Notes under the pieces: generated by a model | Seen by the model: the letters and a program-made list of their open reading frames with translations, nothing else | The model's database searches: none | Told to the model about the DNA's origin: nothing | Part shown: in pieces, positions 1,939-33,286 of the stretch | How positions within the stretch are numbered: the stretch's first letter is position 1 | How the letters are laid out: every line of letters starts with the position of its first letter | Position numbers and translations under genes: made by a program | From: a virus | Strand: one strand, 5' to 3' | DNA: 33,375 bases | Virus record (IMG/VR): IMGVR_UViG_3300003323_000602 | Coordinates: 1-33,375 of that record

Positions 1939-2562
1939 ATGAATACACGAACCATGTTAAAGTGGTGCGGGGGTATTGTTCTAGCTTTTGCTATTCTGTT
2001 TACGCTTGCACATCCACTCAGTTCTTATGCTGAGGAGGATATTAACGCACCACATACACCAGCTTACTATCTGAAACGCGTGTTTGAGATAGGCACAGAG
2101 ATTGGTAATCCTGAGACGCTACAAGCGATCCTCATGCAAGAATCAAAGGGAATAAAACACGCTGTGGGTAATCCCAAAGCTCCCTTGTCCCAACGCTCAT
2201 ATGGATTGATGCAAGTTCAGCTTGGAGCAGCACGTTCAATCCTGCAACGCCAGCCTGATTTGCTGAATGAGATCTTCCCCGATCGTACATTGAAATCAAT
2301 CAAAGACCCCGAATTGGCAGAAATGCTAATACACAATGACGAAGCCAACATTCGCATTGCAGCATATCATTTCAATCTGTACCTGAAGCTATGCAAGGGA
2401 AATTGGCACAAGGCTGTCGCAGCGTACAACGTTGGAATTGGAGGCGTACAAAACATCTCTAATCCTGCTGAATACTCGTATGTTAGAGAAATCAAGCGCA
2501 AGATGGATAGAATCATCAAGCCGTTCAATACCCGCAATGAATTGTTGTCGACAGCTAATTGA
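1939..2562 (+). CDS. Exported SLT-family lytic transglycosylase (endolysin candidate)
   Basis: Predicted peptidoglycan lytic transglycosylase acting in the periplasm. The N-terminus (about 1-31) is a signal peptide or anchor: basic start, a hydrophobic stretch from about residue 11 to 25, then SSYA as a possible cleavage site. The SLT domain follows: ILMQESKG with E68 as the likely catalytic acid, SYGLMQVQ (87-94) and AAYNVGIGGV (161-170), the three standard family motifs in order. A GGAA lies about 9 bases before the ATG. The signal peptide means export by the host Sec system, so lysis timing would not depend only on a holin pore. No lysozyme of the T4 gpe type is seen in the window, so this may be the main lysin, or a virion-independent helper. 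It lies among early-strand genes with no clear promoter of its own. Confidence 0.85.
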   Translation: MNTRTMLKWCGGIVLAFAILFTLAHPLSSYAEEDINAPHTPAYYLKRVFEIGTEIGNPETLQAILMQESKGIKHAVGNPKAPLSQRSYGLMQVQLGAARSILQRQPDLLNEIFPDRTLKSIKDPELAEMLIHNDEANIRIAAYHFNLYLKLCKGNWHKAVAAYNVGIGGVQNISNPAEYSYVREIKRKMDRIIKPFNTRNELLSTAN

Positions 2563-7822: not shown

Positions 7823-8004
7823 TTACATACCGGCCTGTGCATCAAGCACTCGAAAATGCTGATCGCATTCGTGAAGAATTACCGTTCCTCATCCAGCCAT
7901 CTCAATCCAATTTTGACATGGTAACATTAGCTGCTGAAGTTAGAAGACTACGAAATATCCTATCAAGCATTTCATATGAAAAAACAGAAGACCCTCATCT
8001 TTGA
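7819..8004 (+). CDS. Small hypothetical protein (61 aa)
   Basis: Not recognised. The start overlaps the preceding stop by four bases and has an excellent GGGAG (7807-7811) seven bases upstream, which is the main reason to accept so short a frame. The product is helical: a first amphipathic helix HQALENADRIREELPFL and a second VTLAAEVRRLRNILSSI, giving a helical-hairpin prediction. Its last 29 bases overlap the start of the RNase H gene in another frame, so ribosomes finishing here would be close to the RNase H start, which itself has no evident binding site. That coupling could be its practical role in expression. Confidence 0.6.
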   Translation: MITYRPVHQALENADRIREELPFLIQPSQSNFDMVTLAAEVRRLRNILSSISYEKTEDPHL

Positions 8005-8917
8005 TATCAGCAACATGCTGCATCGCACGTTCTATGGCAACACAGCTGAAGACGATACGACAATCGCTGGACTTGCGAGCCACCAAGCGTTAGTTACTTT
8101 ACAGAAGTATTATCGCATGCATAAACCCGATAAGGTCGTCATGGCTTTTGATAGAAAGTCGTGGCGAAAGGAATTTACTGCAAGCGAAGAGTGCATTTCT
8201 AAGATGCCCTATAAGGGCAATAGACGTCAGGGAATGACTCCGAAGCAAGAGGAAAAATACAAGCGTTTCTTGGGCCATATCAAGGAATTTGAAGCTCTGA
8301 TTACGGAACACACGGCAATCATCACGCTCGCTGCACCTCACTTGGAGGCTGATGACATGATCGCAGGATATGTTCAGCGGTTTTGCACAGAAGAGGAAAT
8401 CGTGATCATCAGCACTGACACGGACTATCTGCAGTTGATGCGCTACGAAGATGTGTTGATCATGTCGCCAGCGACCGACAAGATTCAAGAATTGAGCGAA
8501 TACGACGGAGATCCATTATTCTACATCTTCGTTAAGTGCATTCGTGGGGATAGTTCAGATAATGTTAGGTCTGCATTCCCAAGAGTGCGTATGGCACGTC
8601 TCAAGAAAGCCTACACGGATCCATTCGAGTATGAAAACTTAATGAAGGAAACGTGGTCTGTAACTGAATTGGAAGACGGCAAGGAAGTCACGCGAAACTT
8701 TGTCGTCGGGAAACTGTTCCAGGAAAATCAAAAGTTGATTGATCTGTCCAAGCATCCCGAAGATATTCGTGAACTATTGGATTACTCGCTGGACAAGTGT
8801 TTGAACCGAGAACGCAAATTTTCAATGATGTTCATCATGCGGTTCATTGGGAAGTACGATCTCAATCGCATTCGCGAGAATATTGATACGTACATCCCCC
8901 TACTAAGTTGTACTTAA
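7976..8917 (+). CDS. rnh: RNase H / 5'-3' exonuclease (T4 Rnh, FEN-1 family)
   Basis: Removes RNA primers and flaps from lagging-strand fragments, as T4 RNase H does. The 313-aa product is close to T4 Rnh (305 aa). PIN-domain metal ligands are visible in order: D10 in IFDISN, D59 in MAFDRK, E124, D126 and D127 in HLEADDM, D148 and D150 in STDTDYLQL, and D192 and D195 in RGDSSDNV, which leads into the DNA-binding helical region. The KMPYKGNRR segment (77-84) is the conserved arch-side motif. No ribosome binding site is visible before the ATG, and translation is probably coupled to the overlapping 61-aa gene. Its TAA overlaps the stop codon of the convergent membrane-protein gene inside an inverted repeat. 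Confidence 0.9.
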   Translation: MKKQKTLIFDISNMLHRTFYGNTAEDDTTIAGLASHQALVTLQKYYRMHKPDKVVMAFDRKSWRKEFTASEECISKMPYKGNRRQGMTPKQEEKYKRFLGHIKEFEALITEHTAIITLAAPHLEADDMIAGYVQRFCTEEEIVIISTDTDYLQLMRYEDVLIMSPATDKIQELSEYDGDPLFYIFVKCIRGDSSDNVRSAFPRVRMARLKKAYTDPFEYENLMKETWSVTELEDGKEVTRNFVVGKLFQENQKLIDLSKHPEDIRELLDYSLDKCLNRERKFSMMFIMRFIGKYDLNRIRENIDTYIPLLSCT

Positions 8918-8928
8918 AACTTAGTAGG
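8899..8928. repeat. Perfect inverted repeat across two overlapping convergent stop codons
   Basis: CCTACTAAGTT (8899-8909) and AACTTAGTAGG (8918-8928) are perfect 11-base arms around an 8-base loop containing both TAA stops (8915-8917 on +, 8914-8916 on -). No T run follows on either strand, so it is not a canonical terminator, although it is placed where one would be expected. Confidence 0.75.
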
Positions 8929-9357
8929 CGTTGAATCGTCCGCAGGAGGGGCCGTTGTAGCCGATGTCTGTATCACAGTAGTCTCTACGCGATCACGCAC
9001 TCCCTCTTTTGCCTTGACAAAAGAGTTAACACCAGCACCTGTAACGAGATACGTCAAATACATACCGAGTATGTCGAAGTTTAGCGTTTGACGGTCTGCA
9101 AATCGAATAACAATCCACGTTGAAACAATCACCCCAATGATGTAGCCGAGCTTATAAGGTGAAGCTCGGTTATTTTGGGAATCAATTATCAAGTGTTCCC
9201 ATTTGATGGGATTGAGTGGGTCACGGCTAGCTTTAGCGAAGACCCATGTGAAAAACACGAGCGTGCCGATCGTAAACCATGTAGCTCCCGAGAATGGTAT
9301 GGCAGCGAAGACTGATGATATGCGGGTGAGGATGGTTTCGAACATGATAACAAACAT
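8914..9357 (-). CDS. Membrane protein, holin candidate
   Basis: A 147-aa protein (143 aa if it starts at the second ATG, 9345) with three likely membrane segments: about residues 23-40 (ATWFTIGTLVFFTWVFA), 69-85 (LGYIIGVIVSTWIVIRF) and 96-113 (LGMYLTYLVTGAGVNSFV). A charged stretch KAKEGVRDRVETTV and a Pro/Thr/Ala tail follow. Size and topology fit a class I-like phage holin, but no sequence signature proves it. It lies under a late-type promoter divergent from the PAAR-peptidase gene. No Shine-Dalgarno sequence precedes either start, and the predicted leader to the first ATG is only about 6 bases. It could instead be another membrane or virion protein. Confidence 0.6.
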   Translation of the reverse strand: MFVIMFETILTRISSVFAAIPFSGATWFTIGTLVFFTWVFAKASRDPLNPIKWEHLIIDSQNNRASPYKLGYIIGVIVSTWIVIRFADRQTLNFDILGMYLTYLVTGAGVNSFVKAKEGVRDRVETTVIQTSATTAPPADDSTPTKF

Positions 9358-9385: not shown

Positions 9386-9393
9386 TCTAAATA
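9386..9393 (+). promoter_or_regulatory. T4-type late promoter box for the PAAR-peptidase gene
   Basis: TCTAAATA keeps the TAAATA core of the T4 late consensus. It is embedded in the inverted repeat ACCTCTAAATAGAGGT (9383-9398; arms of 6 bases). Transcription would start near 9399, just upstream of the AAGGAG ribosome binding site (9402-9407). Confidence 0.55.
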
Positions 9394-9416: not shown

Positions 9417-10481
9417 ATGCTATCAATCCTGCGCCTCGGCGACATTGCAACATGTGGGCACGTACCAATCACTGGTAGTCCTAACGTATTTGCTAACGAT
9501 CTTAACGTAACACGAGCTTATGAAGACATTCTCAATTGCCCAGTTCCGCCGCCTTTCGTCCGCTATCTTGAAGGCTTGCATACAGTATTTGTCAACGATT
9601 TGCCGCTAGTTCACATCGGCGATCTTAACATGCACGGTGGCGTTGCAGTTGATGGTTCGCCGGATGTGTTCGGTGATGACTTTAGCTTTGGTTCTACTGG
9701 CAAACCACCAGATCCACTGGGCGTTGCTATTATTGAAGGTCCAGGCGAAGGCAATACTGACTTTATCAATTCGTTCCAACCGGGCGTGGACCGCGTAACT
9801 GCAGCTCAATACATGGCTGATGACACAAACGTGGACGGGCCTAATACCGGCAGCGATCCAGTAAACCGTACAGTACAGCGATATGAAGAGCGTGCGGTTG
9901 GTACAACAGAAAAGATTGAAAAAGTAGTAGCCACAGCACCTCCTCCAACAGGTGTACCGCCACCAACGGTATCGCCAAACTGTCAAGAGATCATCGACAA
10001 GGGAGAGGATTTCGATTTCTATGATCCTCCGTTCCAACTATCGCCAAACTTTACCTTGGCTCAAGTATCTCGCAACACATTAGTTAGCAAATACGATGTT
10101 AAAGCGCAGGTAGGGCTGTCAAAAGTTGACATTATCTGCAATTTGCGCACGCTATGCTACAACGTTTTGGAACCGATGTTGGCTAGATATGGTTCAACCA
10201 TGCGCGTGAACTCTGGTTTCCGCACAGGACGTGGAACATCTCAACACTATCGCGGTGAAGCGGTTGATATTTCTTTCACGGATACCCCTAATGCTGATGC
10301 TAGTTTTGCACGCGCTCAGGAGATAACAAATCTGTTCAATTACGATCAGTACATCTACGAACAGAACAATAGCATTTGGCATCATGTTTCCTACAAGGCC
10401 TCCGGCAGCCTCCGCCGCAATATTCTAACGAAACCTCGTGGCAACAAGTACCTGCAAGGATTGCATAAGGTTGCATTTTGA
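9417..10481 (+). CDS. PAAR-like spike-tip protein fused to an M15-type peptidoglycan peptidase
   Basis: A 354-aa two-domain protein. Residues about 1-90 look like a PAAR-repeat spike tip: GDIATCGH (8-15) with TGSPNVF (19-25), then HIGDLNMHGGVAVDGSPDVF (66-85), offering C13, H15, H66 and H73 as candidate metal ligands. A linker of about 80 residues ends in a Pro-rich stretch (175-187). Residues about 205-330 resemble zinc D-Ala-D-Ala carboxypeptidase/endopeptidases of the M15 group: VNSGFRTGRGTSQHYRGEAVD gives H277 and D284, and WHHVSY gives H322 or H323 as the third ligand. The protein probably caps the tail spike and cuts peptide cross-links on entry. AAGGAG precedes the ATG. Tail location is inferred from PAAR family behaviour; a lysis role is the alternative. 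Confidence 0.8.
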   Translation: MLSILRLGDIATCGHVPITGSPNVFANDLNVTRAYEDILNCPVPPPFVRYLEGLHTVFVNDLPLVHIGDLNMHGGVAVDGSPDVFGDDFSFGSTGKPPDPLGVAIIEGPGEGNTDFINSFQPGVDRVTAAQYMADDTNVDGPNTGSDPVNRTVQRYEERAVGTTEKIEKVVATAPPPTGVPPPTVSPNCQEIIDKGEDFDFYDPPFQLSPNFTLAQVSRNTLVSKYDVKAQVGLSKVDIICNLRTLCYNVLEPMLARYGSTMRVNSGFRTGRGTSQHYRGEAVDISFTDTPNADASFARAQEITNLFNYDQYIYEQNNSIWHHVSYKASGSLRRNILTKPRGNKYLQGLHKVAF

Positions 10482-10571: not shown

Positions 10572-10964
10572 ATGTCAACAGTACCAGTAAGCTACCGTGC
10601 AGAAAAGAGCCCACATCACCACCACGTTGAGTGGTTGGAATTGAACAAGGACGGCATGCTGTACGAATGCGCAATCATGAAGCGTGACCAATTTGGTAAC
10701 GTTCTGTTCTTTAAGATGAACGACTTGGATGAAATCGATAAGCGTCGTCTTGGTGGTATTCTAGCTAACCGTAACGCTGCCAATATGGAATTGTGGGATT
10801 TGATGATGAACACAACTCTACGCAACGGTGTTAATGCTCTTGCATACTTCAACCAGCTCGTCAAACAACTAACACCACTTGGTAAGATCGTCGATCCACG
10901 CCAAGGACAGTTTGGTGGTGCTCACGTTGGTGCTGGTCAAGTGAATACAAACGCTGCTGAGTAA
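10572..10964 (+). CDS. Conserved myovirus protein, probable virion component (130 aa)
   Basis: Function not established. The protein has an N-terminal natural histidine run (SPHHHHVEW), then a compact region YECAIMKRDQFGNVLFFKMN with beta character, a helix DEIDKRRLGGILANRNAANM, and a second helix around NGVNALAYFNQLVKQLTPLG. The C-terminal 20 residues are Gly/Gln/Ala-rich and likely disordered. I associate this pattern with an uncharacterised protein widespread in T4-like marine and soil phages, but cannot name it. It has a good ribosome binding site (GGAG) and its own late-type promoter, consistent with a structural or assembly protein expressed late. The next small gene starts 2 bases after its stop. 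Confidence 0.7.
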   Translation: MSTVPVSYRAEKSPHHHHVEWLELNKDGMLYECAIMKRDQFGNVLFFKMNDLDEIDKRRLGGILANRNAANMELWDLMMNTTLRNGVNALAYFNQLVKQLTPLGKIVDPRQGQFGGAHVGAGQVNTNAAE

Positions 10965-11228: not shown

Positions 11229-12446
11229 TTAGTGAGGTGTACGTGCAACGGAGATTGTTAGCGTGTACGTAATTGAGATTGTACGATTCTTCGACTTCAG
11301 CACTGGAGAGAAGATGATGTGCGTCAACAAACGTTCACGTTCTTCTGCAGGCGTAGAAGGAGAATTTTGAAAACCTGCTGCTGATCCAGCAACGCGTGTT
11401 GCCAACGTTGCACCTAGTGGTGGATTAAGAGATGCAATGAATGAAGTTGTCTGCGTTCCAGCAAGATCAATCGCTGATGTTACACCTGACGTTGGCGATT
11501 CAAATTTCAAGAAGCCAAATGTCTGAGCACCAGCAATCGTTGGGAACGTTCCTGCTGTTTGATCGGAGATCAATACTCGAGCACCGCCCGGCAGTGGAGT
11601 TGAGCCTGTCATCCCCCATGCTGGTGATCCTGTGTTAATAGCTTCACAGAAGTCACCGTATAGAACCTGACCACCTGCGCCAGATCCGCCAGACGACGGA
11701 ACCGTGAACGTAACGGTAACAGGAGATCCACCGTCAACGGCGATGTTGAATGAGTAAGACAAACCAGGCAAAAGTCCAGAGTCGTCTGTAGAAATACGTG
11801 TTCCAACGTCAATGTACTGGTATCCCTTTGTTGGAATTGCTTGAGCTCCGCTTGTATACAAGCCGATTTCATCAAACACAAACTGAGATTCAGTATTTTG
11901 TGTGGTAGGAAAAGTATCACTTGCAAACTGGCTGCGTGGTTCGTCACCGTTCAGTGTTGAAGAAATGATAACCTGAGACAACAGGCCTAGTTCTTGGGAG
12001 CGAACGCCAGGTCCTGAGATGTGCGGTGTTGATGGAGGATCACTCGAAGGAACTGCACCGCCACCTGGACGAACGCCTGTGCGATAGTCAGCTGAACCTG
12101 GGTCTGTACCAAGCAGCGGATTCAATGTTGTTTGTCCTTCATCAATGATTTCAGAGTATGTTTCGTAGTACAAGCGACTATCCCACGTATTCGTATCAGG
12201 TGATTGACCGTCATTTGGCGTCTTGTATGTCACAGTAAACGCAGCATCAACCAAGGTACCACCATTACCAAAAGCAATGCGATTGATGAAATAGTTTGGT
12301 TCATTAGCAAGCGCTCGTGCAAAAATACGTGCCATGTTTTGTGGATGGACAGCGTTATACTGATCGACGAGTGTGTTTCCCAAGTCATCTACAGCATGCA
12401 AGTGGCCTACGATGTTTACAGGAATGTGTGCGTTAATTTGTGTCAT
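11229..12446 (-). CDS. Conserved T4-like virion structural protein (405 aa)
   Basis: The last gene of the tail cluster. The 405-aa sequence has the conserved front block of an uncharacterised structural family of T4-like phages: NYFINRIAFGNGGTLVDAAF, then TWDSRLYYETYSEIID, a proline/glycine-rich loop with SSDPPSTPHISGPGVRSQ, and QVIISSTLNGDEPRSQF. The rest is Ser/Thr/Gly-rich beta structure, with a middle insertion (about 215-330) containing PGLSYSFNIAVDGG and GGSGAGGQVLYGDFCEAIN. The N-terminus suits a peripheral baseplate or tail protein. By order after gp6 it falls where T4 genes 9-11 would be, but I see no specific similarity. It has its own GATAAATA promoter. Its ribosome binding site (GGAA, distant) is weak. 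Confidence 0.7.
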   Translation of the reverse strand: MTQINAHIPVNIVGHLHAVDDLGNTLVDQYNAVHPQNMARIFARALANEPNYFINRIAFGNGGTLVDAAFTVTYKTPNDGQSPDTNTWDSRLYYETYSEIIDEGQTTLNPLLGTDPGSADYRTGVRPGGGAVPSSDPPSTPHISGPGVRSQELGLLSQVIISSTLNGDEPRSQFASDTFPTTQNTESQFVFDEIGLYTSGAQAIPTKGYQYIDVGTRISTDDSGLLPGLSYSFNIAVDGGSPVTVTFTVPSSGGSGAGGQVLYGDFCEAINTGSPAWGMTGSTPLPGGARVLISDQTAGTFPTIAGAQTFGFLKFESPTSGVTSAIDLAGTQTTSFIASLNPPLGATLATRVAGSAAGFQNSPSTPAEERERLLTHIIFSPVLKSKNRTISITYTLTISVARTPH

Positions 12447-12732: not shown

Positions 12733-12740
12733 TATTTACT
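12733..12740 (-). promoter_or_regulatory. Variant late promoter box for the 75-aa gene
   Basis: The minus strand reads AGTAAATA, which keeps the TAAATA core but differs from GATAAATA at the first two positions. It overlaps the stop of the upstream gene (12736). Spacing to the gene start resembles that at the other late boxes. Confidence 0.4.
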
Positions 12741-14247
12741 GAGAGTACAGTGTCCTGCCGTGGTTTCTCGTGCTAGTTTCTAAAGTTTCATCCATGCCAC
12801 CAATATCAAAAAGTGCCACATCATAGCCAGTTGGTAGAAGCAACATTGCCGGTGGCGTCGGAGCAGTGAAAGGAAACACTGTTTCCGAGTGAGTTCCATA
12901 CGGCGAACTCATTGCATCAGCACCCCACGGCATCACACCCCAGCCTTCCGTTGCATTTTCGATCACTTCTGCATCAATGCGATCGAAGGCATCGATATCG
13001 AAAGCAAACTTCAACACTTCGTGAATGAACGTGTCAGCGTGGACATCCGGCGCAGAAGCAACAGCACAGTACGAAGGTTCATCGTATCCACCGACATTAA
13101 GGGAGATCAAACCATCCGTTAAAGCTCCAACGGGTGATGTGGCAGGAATTGTCTCGATTACTACCAATCTATAGTTATTTCCTTCGGGAATAACTGCACC
13201 AATTACATATTGGCCATCATTTCGATTAAGATAGCTACCGATTACATTGACAGTTTGTCCTGGAATGAACGGTTCCAGACGTTTAATCGTCAGTTGTCCT
13301 GTTCCCAAACCTGTAATATCAATGTACTCAGAGTATTCTTGTGGATAGCGTTTAAACGATATGTTGAAAATCCCTGGTATTGCTGTTGGAACAAAGTAAT
13401 AATCGCGACCATTGATGATGCCATCAGGTAGTGTGCCCGTGGATGCCAACTGAACCTTCATTCCAGCGTCCCAGTAAGGGATATCATCGAATGATTGTGG
13501 CACGTTTGCAGTACCTGTTGCAGTCGCCAGCAGCGAAATTGATTCTTCCACAACGATATTAGTCACACTACCTGCAGGAGATATTGCTGCAACTGTGTAT
13601 TGTTTGTTTACGCCAGGACCTGTATTGGAGTTGACGTAAAAATGCATTCCAACTGTTAGAGGATATGAACCTGCGGTAAGATCCCCAAGAACTGTCCACG
13701 TCTTAGTATATGGATTGACGCCGGTAATTGCATGAGGTGTCGCAAACATCAACTGATTGGATTGCGTGTTGATTACAACGCAATTGAATGTTTGCGACGG
13801 CACGCCCTGCACCAAAAATGAGTTAGTAGCGCATACCGTACCCATGATTGGATTGTTGGGATCCTGTGACGTTGGATCGTCGGGGCAAGGCTCCGTATCA
13901 GCTCGAATGATTGTGGTAGATACTGTAGCTTCGGGCGAAACTAATCCAGCTTCACTCCATTTGTGGCCGTATCCGCATGCATAAATGACGTCTGCACGAG
14001 CATCTGAAACCAGCAAATCATATGGCGGAATTGAGAATGGATCATGATACTTAACGTCAACATTTGTACGCGCCAAGCCAATGAGAAACTTCCATCTGTC
14101 GAGCACTGTAGCGTTAACATTTTCCCCATAGACGTACTCGACCAATACATCCAATACTTTGGTGTGGTATGGTTTAATTGCTTGGACGTATTCAACTAGA
14201 CCCTCTGTGGGGTCTACTCGAAATAGCGCTGAGGTTAGATCTGCCAT
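12736..14247 (-). CDS. Tail/baseplate structural protein, paralogous to parts of the giant protein (503 aa)
   Basis: Probable baseplate-associated protein. The N-terminus VEYVQAIKPYHTKVLDVLVEYVYGE (in two parts, about 19-43) is a motif seen in structural proteins of T4-like aquatic phages. The middle holds repeated beta modules shared with the 3313-aa neighbour: a module around LPDGIINGRDYYFVPT ending YIDITGLGTGQLTI (about 257-321), and a second type around NRNDGQYVIGAV with RLVVIETI (about 335-360). In T4 order (5, 6, 7, 8) its place matches gene 8, but no direct gp8 likeness is visible. An endonuclease gene separates it from the giant gene. It has no good ribosome binding site, and no late box lies directly upstream in the 14-base gap. 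Confidence 0.7.
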   Translation of the reverse strand: MADLTSALFRVDPTEGLVEYVQAIKPYHTKVLDVLVEYVYGENVNATVLDRWKFLIGLARTNVDVKYHDPFSIPPYDLLVSDARADVIYACGYGHKWSEAGLVSPEATVSTTIIRADTEPCPDDPTSQDPNNPIMGTVCATNSFLVQGVPSQTFNCVVINTQSNQLMFATPHAITGVNPYTKTWTVLGDLTAGSYPLTVGMHFYVNSNTGPGVNKQYTVAAISPAGSVTNIVVEESISLLATATGTANVPQSFDDIPYWDAGMKVQLASTGTLPDGIINGRDYYFVPTAIPGIFNISFKRYPQEYSEYIDITGLGTGQLTIKRLEPFIPGQTVNVIGSYLNRNDGQYVIGAVIPEGNNYRLVVIETIPATSPVGALTDGLISLNVGGYDEPSYCAVASAPDVHADTFIHEVLKFAFDIDAFDRIDAEVIENATEGWGVMPWGADAMSSPYGTHSETVFPFTAPTPPAMLLLPTGYDVALFDIGGMDETLETSTRNHGRTLYSQ

Positions 14248-14261
14248 CTATGCACTTTCTG

Positions 14262-14990
14262 TTATACTGTAAGTTTATCAAGTTCCTGCTTCAAGATTGA
14301 TAGCATTGATATGGGAAAACATTCTGTCCATCCATATACGTTGTTCTCTCTTAACTTATGAGCTCGATACCGATGTGTTGCGTACTTATCCAATAATTGT
14401 TGTTCAATCTGATATGCTTGTTTGAGAGACATCTCCACCACTTTAATACAGCATATTCCACGTCGAGAAAATCTGCGCTCAATAGTATTCTTTGTGATTC
14501 CTATTTTGCAAAATTGATCGTTGATTGTAACAAGGTACACAATCCCACGCGTTTGCTTTTCACATAGACGCCGTTCAAAGTATTTATCTGTGTACATACC
14601 CTTCGTTAAATCGCCGCACTGAGGACATCCCCTACCATCTAAGTGGTCAGCGGGTCGTTGGTCAAATGAACCATGGATGGCACATACAATGGAAACCTTC
14701 GTGTTCATATTCACCAGTTTTACACATGAATAATCATAGATATCACCGTGTTGACGTCGAGCTCGGCTAATGAATTCGCTCAATTCAATCTTTGCAGTTC
14801 CACCACATTGTGGACATCCGTACCCATGCATATGATCTTTCGGCGTCTGCAGAAACCACCCATGAATAGGACACGTAATATTCACTTTAGTGGTTACGTT
14901 CGTGTAAGAAACAGCTTCATATGTGTACTGACTTTTGTGGATCGCCAGTGAACGATCCACAAAAGTTGCTAAGTTAAGTCTTGCTCCCAT
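14262..14990 (-). CDS. Free-standing GIY-YIG/T5orf172-type endonuclease with two zinc-binding repeats
   Basis: Likely a homing-type DNA endonuclease. Two tandem zinc-binding repeats of about 55 residues form the N-terminal DNA-binding half: ligands C40, H43, C59, C62 in the first (CPIHG, GCPQCG) and C103, H106, C122, C125 in the second (CAIHG, GCPQCG). The C-terminal half (about 148-240) resembles GIY-YIG or T5orf172 domains: GIVYLV (149-154), KIGIT (162-166), R169-R172 region, IEQQLL with E196, and a final YGWTECF. It fits tightly between two tail genes, 14 bases after one and 6 before the other, with no good ribosome binding site. It also carries an internal GATAAATA. Whether it still cuts, and where, is not visible. 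Confidence 0.8.
   Translation of the reverse strand: MGARLNLATFVDRSLAIHKSQYTYEAVSYTNVTTKVNITCPIHGWFLQTPKDHMHGYGCPQCGGTAKIELSEFISRARRQHGDIYDYSCVKLVNMNTKVSIVCAIHGSFDQRPADHLDGRGCPQCGDLTKGMYTDKYFERRLCEKQTRGIVYLVTINDQFCKIGITKNTIERRFSRRGICCIKVVEMSLKQAYQIEQQLLDKYATHRYRAHKLRENNVYGWTECFPISMLSILKQELDKLTV
14581..14588 (-). promoter_or_regulatory. Late-promoter-like box inside the endonuclease gene
   Basis: The minus strand reads GATAAATA, in frame over codons for D-K-Y near residue 136. It could serve the 503-aa gene about 330 bases downstream, which has no box of its own. It may also be chance, since the gap to the gene is far larger than at the other sites. Confidence 0.3.
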
Positions 14991-28676: not shown

Positions 28677-30203
28677 TCAGCGTCTCCAGTACATGCCACG
28701 ATCATATGTTGTACCGCGCTCTTCGCGGTTCACCTTTGGATCGGTATACTGGAATTCTGGTGCGTGAGTGCTGTCAGAGGCAGTTGCTGTGCGAGCCCAT
28801 GGTTCGTGATCTGGCACGCGGCTAGTCAAGTATGCAATCGTTGCTTCTGTTGCCTCAGCTGCTGTTGCAGCACCTGCTGCGGGTGCACTCATTGAATTGA
28901 AGTGAATTGTACCAGCCGTAGATCTGAAAGACGATGCAGCAAGTGCATTCATAATTCCACCAGAATCGAGGTTCAAGTCTCCCGAAGCTTTCAAATCCAT
29001 TGTAGCGCCCGAGGTGATCTTCACGTTACTGCCACCCTTGACGTCAATGCTCGTACCAGCTGTAACCTTTACCGACGTTCCACCCTTGATGTCCACGCTT
29101 TGCGAGGCCGTTAATCTAATTAACTGGCTCGACTTGACGTGAATATCGTTCTTTGCTGTGATCTTAACTACATCATCAGATGATAGGTGGATTCCCTTTT
29201 TAGCAGTCATTCGAATCGTTTCATCAGACGTGAGATTCAAATCATTCAGTGAGTGAATATTCACGCGATTCGCTGAATACATATCAATTGTACCGTTCTG
29301 ATCAAATTCAATCCAATTATTTCCCTGCGCAGTAGCAATGTAGATACGTTCATTGGTATCATCGAGGATGATCTGATGTCCTGAAGTAGTACGAATACGG
29401 ACTCGGTTGTTTTCCTGACGATCATCCATTGCAAAAGCATGGAATCCCGGAGAAACTATCGCATACACATGCGAATCGTAATTGCGATCTGTTGTTCCTG
29501 TTTGTGCATTGGGATCAGAACGGCTGGTTTGATATCCTTGCGTACTTGTCCACCCATCGTGCACCGTATCTTGATCATCCTGAACGCTAGAAAATGTCTT
29601 ACCGAGGGAATCAACACTAACTCCACTTGCTGTATAATCAGCACCACGGGTACGATATTCGTAATTTGGTTCAGACTTATGGCCGAATGCTCTCTTTTGG
29701 TTAGTATTCAACGGCTCAATGAATTTTTCCATTGAAGTGTACGGGCCATACGGAGCTGCGTCCGTACCATCTTTTTGCAATTCAGGGTGATCATCATACA
29801 TGTATCGACCATGTGGCATCGTATGCGGTGTGAATTGGTCAAAAATGCAGCCGATGTAGATTCGTGACATAGGATCGCCATCGACGCACATCACAACTGC
29901 TTGTGCTCCAACCTTAGGTATCCACCAAGCACCGTAGGCGATTCCACCTTCTGATGTTTGAATCCCCGGACCGCGTGCAGCTACCTGAGATTGACCACCA
30001 AATGGCGCCATATAGATTGCCCATGGCAAATCCTCTACCGCCATTTGCATGGTATCACCCCATTGTGGACATACGATTCGTACTCGGCCCATTTCTTGAG
30101 GGTCGTTTGTATCCACAACAGTACCAATGGTGACGTTTTGTTGTACAGTGCTTTGAGGATGTCCTTGCTGAAACAAGCGTTGCTGATTTGTAATTGTTGG
30201 CAT
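28677..30203 (-). CDS. 5: Baseplate hub spike protein, gp5/VgrG-like, without a lysozyme domain (508 aa)
   Basis: Central spike of the tail. Residues about 22-120 match the gp5 OB-fold: NVTIGTVVDTNDPQEMGRVR, PWAIYMAPFGG, and GAWWIPKVGAQAVVMCVDGD followed by IYIGCIFD. Residues about 305-415 are the trimeric beta-helix: repeated eight-residue-like units such as VKITAKNDIHVKSSQLIRLT and SVKVTAGTSIDVKGG. T4 gp5 has a lysozyme between these domains; here the intervening region (about 125-300) contains a charged, tyrosine-rich linker and a strand-rich section, with no visible lysozyme motif. A C-terminal tail (about 440-508) extends beyond the helix, ending DRGMYWRR. The gene begins 11 bases after the hub gene's stop with only a weak GAGA signal. 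Confidence 0.88.
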   Translation of the reverse strand: MPTITNQQRLFQQGHPQSTVQQNVTIGTVVDTNDPQEMGRVRIVCPQWGDTMQMAVEDLPWAIYMAPFGGQSQVAARGPGIQTSEGGIAYGAWWIPKVGAQAVVMCVDGDPMSRIYIGCIFDQFTPHTMPHGRYMYDDHPELQKDGTDAAPYGPYTSMEKFIEPLNTNQKRAFGHKSEPNYEYRTRGADYTASGVSVDSLGKTFSSVQDDQDTVHDGWTSTQGYQTSRSDPNAQTGTTDRNYDSHVYAIVSPGFHAFAMDDRQENNRVRIRTTSGHQIILDDTNERIYIATAQGNNWIEFDQNGTIDMYSANRVNIHSLNDLNLTSDETIRMTAKKGIHLSSDDVVKITAKNDIHVKSSQLIRLTASQSVDIKGGTSVKVTAGTSIDVKGGSNVKITSGATMDLKASGDLNLDSGGIMNALAASSFRSTAGTIHFNSMSAPAAGAATAAEATEATIAYLTSRVPDHEPWARTATASDSTHAPEFQYTDPKVNREERGTTYDRGMYWRR

Positions 30204-30214
30204 ATAGATCTCTG

Positions 30215-33200
30215 TTATGCTATATTAATTGGATTTGCTTGTCCTGGCATCGGTCCTGTGGTGGATTGAGGGGTAGCAGCTTCAATAGCAGCTGCATTCT
30301 CCATCTTGCGAATATCACCCTGACGAATTGCATCATTGCTTAATGTTGGACGAGGACCGCAAGGTGTTGCTGCCTCTGCTTTCTTAGCTTGCGCTTCACA
30401 ATTATTCTGTGCTGCAATCGCATTCTCTGCCTTACGCACGTCTGCTTGATCTGCCGTTCGTGGAACGGACACAGGCACTGCAGCCGTTTGAATCGATTGA
30501 GTTGTAGCTGGCTTGTTGGTGTTAGTGGTTTTCGTACCACCTTTGAGCAATTTTGCCATTGCCACAGATGCCCAGCCCCGTAGATTGCCAACAGTCGTTC
30601 GTGAATTGACAATCGTTGGATTTGCGCGAGCGATTCCAGCTGCTGTTGATGCTCCTAATGCTGTAGACAACAGTTGGCTACCACTGGATGCACGATCAGC
30701 ACTGATTACCTTTGCTGCAGTTGCAGGTCCCAAGAAGTGAGCAAGATACAAATCACCGGGATCTGTAGAACCAATTGCGCGACTATTGTCACGTAAGAAG
30801 TTCGCACCTGCGATCGCATTGTTGAATGGGTCAAAACGAGGATCGTTAGGTTGAGGAGACGTTCCTGGAGATGTCACTAGCGTTTGCGCCTTGCCTTGTT
30901 TTACCATTCCATTCCACGTTGACTTAATGAATTGGAATAAACCTGTAGCAGAAGAAGCAGGTGATGCTGTTGCTCGAGCACGGAATGAGGATTCCTTCGC
31001 AGCAAACATTGCCATCAAGATTGGATCAACGCCAACTTGGTTTGCAGCTTGGACGATCGCGCGTTGAACTTCTGGAGCTGCTTTATCCCAACCTGTAACG
31101 TCTGATAGTTGATACTTACCATTAAGCACTGTAACAGCATCTGGACGTGTTGTTGGCTCAATAGCACCTGATGGAGGTGTAACTGGAACTGGATCCAAAG
31201 GCTTGAACGATGAAGAGCTACCGTTACTTGTCGTTGAGCTGACACAGCCAACAGCATTGTCATAGCAAGACAATACACCAGAACTAATATTGATTTCTGA
31301 GCCGCTACCCGGTCGCGTCGACTGAAAGGCACTCTTCTTTGGTAACCCAATCATGTCGAGTGTTTGTGAAAATTCACCATTATCAAAGATGTGATCTATG
31401 CCGCAAACATAGTAGTATCCATCGAACCAAAAATCGCGCGCATAATCTGCAAATCCAACTTGGTTAATATCCGTATTCCCGTCGATTCCCTGCCCCGTAA
31501 ACAATGAAAAGTCATCATTGTTTCTCGGCATCTTAATACGAACCTTCGCAAACGCTGGAACGCGTGACCAATCGTGGAAATTAGCAGAATCAGGAGTATT
31601 TGAAGCTACAAATGGTGCATCCTTTGTTTCATTCAACGAACGAATCATCTGCTCAGGTGACGAAGTTTTATTGGTACTACGCAATAGTTCCGTGTTGCCA
31701 ACAATTCGCATCTTCGCTTCTGCAACTTCAAGAGACGCATGCTTTGCCAGTGAATACCCACTTTGGATCGATACGTTTGCGTCTTGTGCGTTTAATTGGC
31801 CCGGTGTCTTGATCTGCGATCCAAAATACACAGGAATCTGCATCAAACCACCACCAAAACGATTGAACATGTTATTAACGTCTGCAGTACTTGCAGATGT
31901 TTGTCGATTTGGGCCGCGTTCCAGTTGACTCTTGAAGGTATTTGCCAACGTAGCTGTCTGCAGATACGCTAGACCCATGTTGACCTTCATGTCAAACTCT
32001 AGGATGTCAATGTTTTTACCAGTATAGATGTAGTCAAATTCGATGATGTTACGTCGTATTGTATCGTACATCGGATTTGCCTTTAGCTTATCATCATCGT
32101 CTTGCAACGCTGCAAACTGGCTATCGTAAGACACAGTCTTTGGAACCATGAATCGTTCGACTCGATAATATACCGTATAATCAAGTTTGGAACTATCTTG
32201 ACCTGACTGTGGAGCTGAACGCAAAGCTGTATGAATCTTGTAATCGTACTTGACGCCGTTACTGTCACCAGTTGCAGCATCGCGTTGCACTTGATTACTC
32301 ATCGACATAATCTGTCGGATGGCGCCTTCAATACTGGTAGATGATGGGAATGTAACATGAACGGGATCGTCACAATTAGCTCCCGTTTTGTATTGTTCGG
32401 GCTGGTCTGTGACTGTATAGCTATCATTTTGATAGTCTGTGCCCACTTCAATTACGTAATTTACGCGGCGTAACGAATCAATCAATGGTTGTGGATCAAC
32501 GCCTTGCGATCCACGAATTTGATCTACGACGCACTGAAAGTACTTGTCGTAATTGATGTTGATATTGTCTTGCAGGCGTGCCAGTGTCGATTGGAGACTG
32601 TTACCAGCTGTAATGCTCATTGCATTTACAGCTTTTGCATATTGCGGTAAACGCGCTGCGCCGTGGCCAGCTGCAACAAATGACATTTCATAACTGCCAC
32701 CTGCCTCTGTGAATGAACCAGTGACGTCGTAGCAGATGAAATTTAGCGGCGGAATGTCGGTTATCTGCTCATACACATCGTTATTTGATGTTGTTGGATC
32801 AAACCCATGCCCTACGAAGAACGTCTTCAGTACGTATACTACTTGAGAGCTATCGACTCCCAACGCAATACTACACTTCACTACTTGGTCCAAGAATGCT
32901 ACACCTTTAGGCTCAGAAATCGACATTGATCCTTCGATCGCAAGAGATGTATTCATATCTCCCGGCACAGCTCCTGCTGCAGTAGCAGTTGTCCATTGCG
33001 CTCGAGTGATAACAAACGATGCATCTGTTGCACCATTGATCAATATGATATACTTACCAACAGGATTACCTGATCCATCCTTGACTAACTTTGGACTGTA
33101 TCGTCCAAGGTTTTCCGTGCCAGGAGCAGGATCAATGTATGCTGTTTCTGTAGTTGCATGATTCCACGTATCTTCGTATGTGCTAGCCGCAAGCATATCT

Positions 33201-33286
33201 GCAGTTGCTGTGCAATCACACATTGCTAGGACGTGATAGTAGCTGTATGAGCGATACGACGCTAGGAGGTTTGGAGGATTTGACAT
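30215..33286 (-). CDS. Large baseplate hub protein with a C-terminal lytic transglycosylase domain (1023 aa)
   Basis: First gene of the visible tail operon and neighbour of gp5, where the T4-like hub would be expected. Residues about 1-690 are beta-rich structural sequence with no motif I can name. Residues about 745-880 are an SLT-type lytic transglycosylase: VGVDPILMAMFAAKESSFRA puts the catalytic glutamate at E765, followed by ATGLFQFIKSTWNGMV, NNAIAGANFLRDN and GDLYLAHFLGPA. The last 80 residues are Ala/Gln-rich and contain two related units, DVRKAENAIAAQ and DIRKMENAAAIEAA. The domain would cut glycan strands during entry. The ATG has no Shine-Dalgarno sequence in its leader of about 17 bases. 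A hub role comes from position; the enzyme domain is from motifs. Confidence 0.8.
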   Translation of the reverse strand: MSNPPNLLASYRSYSYYHVLAMCDCTATADMLAASTYEDTWNHATTETAYIDPAPGTENLGRYSPKLVKDGSGNPVGKYIILINGATDASFVITRAQWTTATAAGAVPGDMNTSLAIEGSMSISEPKGVAFLDQVVKCSIALGVDSSQVVYVLKTFFVGHGFDPTTSNNDVYEQITDIPPLNFICYDVTGSFTEAGGSYEMSFVAAGHGAARLPQYAKAVNAMSITAGNSLQSTLARLQDNININYDKYFQCVVDQIRGSQGVDPQPLIDSLRRVNYVIEVGTDYQNDSYTVTDQPEQYKTGANCDDPVHVTFPSSTSIEGAIRQIMSMSNQVQRDAATGDSNGVKYDYKIHTALRSAPQSGQDSSKLDYTVYYRVERFMVPKTVSYDSQFAALQDDDDKLKANPMYDTIRRNIIEFDYIYTGKNIDILEFDMKVNMGLAYLQTATLANTFKSQLERGPNRQTSASTADVNNMFNRFGGGLMQIPVYFGSQIKTPGQLNAQDANVSIQSGYSLAKHASLEVAEAKMRIVGNTELLRSTNKTSSPEQMIRSLNETKDAPFVASNTPDSANFHDWSRVPAFAKVRIKMPRNNDDFSLFTGQGIDGNTDINQVGFADYARDFWFDGYYYVCGIDHIFDNGEFSQTLDMIGLPKKSAFQSTRPGSGSEINISSGVLSCYDNAVGCVSSTTSNGSSSSFKPLDPVPVTPPSGAIEPTTRPDAVTVLNGKYQLSDVTGWDKAAPEVQRAIVQAANQVGVDPILMAMFAAKESSFRARATASPASSATGLFQFIKSTWNGMVKQGKAQTLVTSPGTSPQPNDPRFDPFNNAIAGANFLRDNSRAIGSTDPGDLYLAHFLGPATAAKVISADRASSGSQLLSTALGASTAAGIARANPTIVNSRTTVGNLRGWASVAMAKLLKGGTKTTNTNKPATTQSIQTAAVPVSVPRTADQADVRKAENAIAAQNNCEAQAKKAEAATPCGPRPTLSNDAIRQGDIRKMENAAAIEAATPQSTTGPMPGQANPINIA

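Follow-up and report, generated by a model that had tools for sequence, protein, structure and literature searches.

A phage gene joining a PAAR spike-tip domain to an M15 zinc peptidase, a putative enzyme-bearing tip of the tail needle

In phage T4 the tip of the tail spike is gp5.4, a PAAR protein present as one copy per gp5 trimer (PMC7600766; PMC4576200). This protein of 97 aa caps the gp5 β-helix and carries no enzyme, the lysozyme of T4 being located inside gp5. According to a personal communication, gp5.4 is reportedly not essential for plaque formation (PMC9024508). In type VI secretion systems (T6SS), PAAR proteins with C-terminal effectors are common (PMC8651086); these tips are likewise fused to an enzyme but they form part of a secretion weapon, while the phage protein analyzed here apparently serves for entry. 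A survey of 224 jumbo phages described their PAAR proteins as stand-alone, with no effector fused (PMC7824862). The solved structure compared here with the catalytic half, the Zn DD-peptidase of Streptomyces (1LBU, family M15A), is a free enzyme.

In this work we analyzed a virus record of 33,375 nucleotides (IMGVR_UViG_3300003323_000602, hereafter the window), which is probably a fragment. The jumbo myophages XacN1 and RAS14/CM1 have the nearest counterparts of its wedge protein gp6, its gp5 and its polymerase, with 31-46% identity. A preliminary description of the window had proposed that one of its genes joins a PAAR tip to an M15 peptidase, in contrast to the enzyme-free gp5.4.

Domains and predicted structure of the product

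The gene and the domains of its product are the following:

9417..10481, + strand: PAAR-linker-M15 peptidase gene, 354 aa (profiles, model and fold matches)
9417..9680, + strand: PAAR spike-tip domain, residues 1-88 (Pfam PF05488, PHROG 281, structure matches)
9681..9941, + strand: predicted disordered linker, residues 89-175 (pLDDT below 50 throughout)
10029..10469, + strand: M15 zinc-peptidase domain, residues ~205-351 (Pfam PF08291, PHROG 894, 1LBU match)

The open reading frame of 354 codons is present as had been claimed; it starts with ATG, and a ribosome-binding-like AAGGAG lies just upstream. The presence of a PAAR tip and an M15 peptidase in a single gene was borne out by the Pfam and PHROG profiles and by the predicted structure, and given that both parts share one open frame, the enzyme is covalently part of the tip.

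The PAAR domain was matched by PF05488 in the protein scan with an E value of 1.3e-5 and 25.7 bits, slightly below the 27-bit cut-off, and in the DNA scan with 28.8 bits, above it; PHROG 281 (PAAR) matched with an E value of 5e-9. A profile built from 20 relatives also matched solved PAAR chains (4jiw, 8e-13; T4 gp5.4, 3e-9). The product was modelled with AlphaFold2 on a 20-sequence alignment, and the pLDDT was ~70-80 in the PAAR part and above 90 over most of the length of the M15 part. The lack of a PAAR fold in residues 1-90 had been named beforehand as the structural result that would speak against the proposal; in the model the conical fold is present, and residues 2-87 match six PAAR chains (4jiw, 4jiv, 6p1z, 9f4b, 4ku0 and 9vyi) with Z scores of 12.3-13.7 and rmsd of 1.6-1.9 Å over 85-87 residues (VIA-align 2). 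The structure matches include tips of T6SS proteins and of the phages T4, phiKZ, P1 and a Klebsiella phage, that of T4 being gp5.4 (4ku0, Z 12.5).

The PAAR part, which ends near residue 88, is separated by ~120 residues from the M15 part. The latter was recognized by PF08291 (Peptidase_M15_3; E 1e-5, 26.1 bits, above the curated cut-off of 23.2) and by PHROG 894 (E 2e-18), a family that bears the label 'endolysin'. Residues 180-351 of the model match 1LBU with a Z score of 11.4 and rmsd of 3.0 over 122 residues (VIA-align 2). The zinc ligands had been assigned to H277, D284 and H322/H323. Among the 20 sequences H277, D284, E315 and H323 are invariant, representing the His-Asp-His zinc ligands and the catalytic Glu; H322 in turn is not a ligand, because the relatives have I, F, L or V at this position.

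Genomic address of the gene and a late-promoter-like box

The surroundings of the gene include these features:

7976..8917, + strand: RNaseH/5'-3' exonuclease, conserved left neighbour (profiles, synteny)
8914..9357, - strand: small membrane protein, conserved opposite-strand position (PHROG search, synteny)
9386..9393, + strand: TCTAAATA, late-promoter-like box with a TAAATA core, 31 nt upstream of the PAAR-M15 gene
10572..10964, + strand: conserved right neighbour, homologue of XacN1 ORF336

The gene had been described as far from the tail cluster and on the opposite strand. The distance to gp5 is indeed 18 kb and the strands differ, but the nearest opposite-strand gene with a late box (11229-12446) is only ~750 bases away. 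The suggestion drawn from this location, that the gene is a recent or mobile addition, was not supported. In five IMG/VR contigs (L101-L104 and L107), whose polymerases are 48-51% identical to that of the window's phage, the same slot includes RNaseH, the opposite-strand membrane gene, PAAR, and the homologue of 10572-10964. At this slot L101 and L104 have a PAAR gene with M15 fused to it; in L102, L103 and L107 the PAAR gene stands alone and encodes proteins of 96-98 aa that are 37-45% identical to the PAAR of the window. From its presence at the same slot across five related contigs it follows that PAAR is a settled resident of the lineage, whereas what varies is the enzyme half.

A recent or mobile insertion in the window's genome would be in line with the complete genomes of XacN1 and RAS14, in which neither PAAR nor M15 was found by profile; the Pfam M15 profile alone had missed the M15 domain of L101, and therefore this absence was rechecked with the A2 profile. 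A different, unrelated gene occupies the slot in XacN1, RAS14 and L106, and the gene may thus have been gained or lost within the wider group. On the same side, the M15 domains of the window and of L101/L104 need not share one origin (p-AU 0.19 in the tree described below). In contrast, PAAR is found at this site in the five related contigs, in two of them with M15, and the GC content of the gene is just slightly above that of its flanks (0.46-0.50 vs 0.43-0.47). We consider an insertion of this kind unlikely, and for the PAAR part it is largely refuted.

Two further observations were made at this locus. Directly 3' of the lone PAAR, in place of the M15 half, there is a gene for a protein of 235-243 aa (L102:9349-10056, L103:10060-10791, L107:11968-12678), for which no significant Pfam or PHROG match was obtained; the structure prediction of the 235-aa ORF reached a pLDDT of 36. 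In L102 and L103, in both of which PAAR lacks M15, small proteins encoded near the PAAR locus (L102:10680-11222 and L103:11389-11943, both on the - strand) have by eye the look of an NlpC/P60-type peptidase.

The box at 9386..9393 is one of several in the window, and we take it to resemble the late promoters of the T4 type. A TAAATA core, often within GATAAATA or TCTAAATA, is located 17-48 nt before the starts of nine window genes (33286, 28619, 24938, 12705, 12446 and 9357 on the - strand; 674, 9417 and 10572 on the + strand), which include those of the hub, gp25, a 3313-aa protein and PAAR-M15; the box is absent upstream of the polymerase, clamp and RNaseH genes of the window. Nine of the 13 TAAATA cores fall within 70 nt upstream of genes, a space that represents 2.2% of the sequence (p 8e-13), and in XacN1 the same is true for 13 of 19 (p 1e-16). 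The T4-type TATAAATA, with one mismatch allowed, showed no enrichment over the whole window. The TAAATA box is thus a candidate late promoter common to the window and XacN1, and its position suggests that the gene of the PAAR-M15 tip may be expressed late, amid replication genes. A late box does not discriminate between a virion protein and a lysin.

Related proteins in other phages and the lytic enzymes of the window

A scan of viral contigs with the single protein yielded no close relative, but relatives were found when an alignment was used as query. Full-length PAAR-M15 proteins are encoded by the Pseudomonas phages Milchi and Illi-2, the Vibrio phages 1.244.A and 207E48.1, and the Pseudomonas phage PA5oct and its kin; the contrast drawn with T4 gp5.4 is correct, but the architecture is not unique to the window. 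In Milchi, Illi-2, 1.244.A and 207E48.1 the proteins have 328-335 aa and, unlike that of the window, the gene is inside the gp5-gp25 tail group, with the arrangement gp5, X, PAAR-M15, gp25 or one that is off by a single gene. Likewise, in the IMG/VR contigs L013-L015 gp5 is just upstream of PAAR-M15, and gp25-gp6 are downstream. The protein of PA5oct (gp239) and of the MIJ3/Paride group shows the same PAAR-linker-M15 arrangement (28.7% identity over 99%); in PA5oct and its kin the gene is also away from the tail cluster, but it adjoins nrdB instead of the polymerase/RNaseH site.

The annotation in PA5oct uses the terms 'PAAR', 'tail lysozyme' and 'muramoyl-pentapeptidase'. The PA5oct relative carries the note 'ESI-MS/MS', as do gp5, gp6 and gp25 of the same phage; the ribonucleotide reductase bears this note too, and hence it is a hint, the only experimental one on virion location, and no proof of a structural role. 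The published virion analysis of MIJ3 named only four abundant proteins, and PAAR-M15 is not among them.

In Caulobacter phage Cr30, Pseudomonas phage pf16 and Methylophilales phage Melnitz a related M15 domain is placed at the needle by fusion to gp5, and in Cr30 and Melnitz PAAR is a separate small gene. Among 80 IMG/VR loci, 15 encode PAAR-M15 and most of the others gp5-M15. Taking isolates and contigs together, gp5 lacks M15 in all eight PAAR-M15 loci with both genes visible, and 11 loci in which M15 forms the end of gp5 encode PAAR separately, as a protein of ~86-98 aa; M15 on both carriers was never seen among these sampled loci (8 + 11). In one contig (L030:9658-10537) PAAR and M15 pieces are placed in two overlapping frames, possibly representing a frameshifted or split PAAR-M15 gene.

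In a tree of M15 domains, eight stand-alone lysins and one unlabelled contig protein were separated from all the needle-linked domains, including that of the window (branch support 100/99). On this tree the carrier label changed at least twice overall, with six or seven changes as the simplest account, in a sample that is not neutral because its needle-side rows were collected with a PAAR-M15 query. The M15 domain of the window is on a long branch, and a topology joining it to the stand-alone lysins was not rejected (p-AU 0.41).

The tail genes of the window encode gp25, a gp6 of 1078 aa, the 3313-aa virion protein, a gp5-like spike and a hub-like protein. Those relevant to the tip and to lytic activity are:

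28677..30203, - strand: gp5-like spike with OB domain and β-helix, presumed partner of the PAAR tip
30215..33286, - strand: hub-like virion protein, SLT transglycosylase domain at the C-terminus (residues ~744-866)
1939..2562, + strand: candidate signal-anchored endolysin, an SLT transglycosylase whose N-terminal segment is hydrophobic

Neither Pfam nor PHROG revealed a lysozyme or any other enzyme domain in the gp5-like protein, which ends after the β-helix, and no M23 domain was found among the scanned tail proteins of the window. The N-terminal part of the hub-like protein is weakly related to XacN1 ORF320; the shorter counterparts in XacN1 and RAS14 (615-627 aa) stop before the SLT domain. 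In these two phages gp5 has a long C-terminal extension that looks like a lysozyme-type domain by reading of the sequence and not by a profile match, and a separate gene is found at the gp5-gp25 junction, for which Pfam gave an M23 peptidase match in XacN1. A pair formed by a glycan cutter and a peptide cutter thus seems to have been kept while its carriers changed, considering that the window has SLT on the hub and a peptidase on the PAAR tip, compared with the gp5 extension and the separate gene of XacN1/RAS14.

In a two-sequence comparison, the last 60 residues of the window's gp5 (28677-28860, - strand) are similar to the C-terminal tail of ORF322, the M23 peptidase of XacN1 (E 1e-6), as might be expected after loss of an M23 gene or fusion of its tail. 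An endonuclease gene (14262-14990, - strand) with T5orf172 and DUF723 matches, perhaps of the homing type, separates the 3313-aa virion gene from 12736-14247.

These data bear on whether the PAAR-M15 product could be a lysis enzyme (an endolysin), with the PAAR half as a leftover or a targeting piece. The label of PHROG 894 agrees with this idea, as do the existence of stand-alone M15 lysins adjoining holins and the small membrane protein gene next to PAAR-M15. Nevertheless, that membrane gene has the opposite orientation and is retained even at loci that lack M15, the PAAR fold is intact, the closest architectures sit between gp5 and gp25, and the stand-alone M15 lysins are on a separate branch of the tree. 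In addition, the SLT protein at 1939-2562 is a separate candidate lysis enzyme; L103 has a homologue at the same place, and no tblastn match at 1e-5 was obtained for it among 50,697 phage records. Compared with the features of an endolysin, i.e. a stand-alone or signal-bearing enzyme in a holin cassette, the product of 9417-10481 is fused to PAAR, shows no N-terminal hydrophobic signal, and has no same-strand holin adjoining. A role in lysis is accordingly improbable.

Proposed function and significance

The product of 9417-10481 is very probably the tip of the tail needle, in which PAAR caps the gp5-like spike and M15 cuts peptidoglycan peptides during entry. The folds, the conserved catalytic residues, the relatives in tail operons, the lack of a recognized enzyme domain in gp5, the stable address and the late-like box come from computation, while we infer that the protein is incorporated into virions, attaches to gp5 and is active as a peptidase, as well as the bond that it cuts and its role in entry.

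The PAAR domain would cap the blunt end of the trimeric β-helix of the gp5-like protein (28677-30203), as gp5.4 does in T4, and the flexible linker of ~90-120 residues would tether the zinc peptidase to it. Upon sheath contraction the tip would be first to cross the outer membrane and would carry the peptidase into the periplasm, where cleavage of peptide bonds in the peptidoglycan may open a passage for the tube; the SLT transglycosylase of the hub (30215-33286) probably cuts the glycan strands. That there is one PAAR per gp5 trimer and that it enters first is proposed by analogy with T4, and there would be one peptidase per virion if the 3:1 spike to tip ratio of T4 holds. Since T4 gp5.4 is reportedly dispensable for plaques, the tip enzyme may be helpful but not required.

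The peptidase could also be conceived as a specialized effector of the T6SS kind, delivered mainly to harm the host or its rivals and not for DNA entry, given how frequent such C-terminal fusions are on T6SS PAAR proteins. This is very improbable: M15 is also fused in many relatives to gp5, which is the carrier of the entry lysozyme in T4, and no immunity-like partner of PAAR-M15 was noted.

Beyond the window, it is about an even bet that a single M15 module is the entry enzyme of a broad set of contractile-tailed phages, with a carrier that changed several times (gp5 or PAAR, never both), a place at the needle point that was kept by selection and, in the window's phage, one tip-borne copy per virion.

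The PAAR-M15 architecture is already in deposited genomes, where it is widespread and partly annotated, and no paper describing it in phages was found in the open-access library searched. The survey statement that the PAAR proteins of jumbo phages are stand-alone (PMC7824862) has exceptions in the gene of the window and in its relatives, among them those from the jumbo phage PA5oct and its kin. In these phages the wall-cutting enzyme would have been relocated from the spike to the foremost point of the needle, as in the PAAR effectors of T6SS. Related phages with a fused or a lone PAAR at one site represent natural pairs, with which the need for a tip enzyme in crossing the peptidoglycan, and its copy number, become testable.
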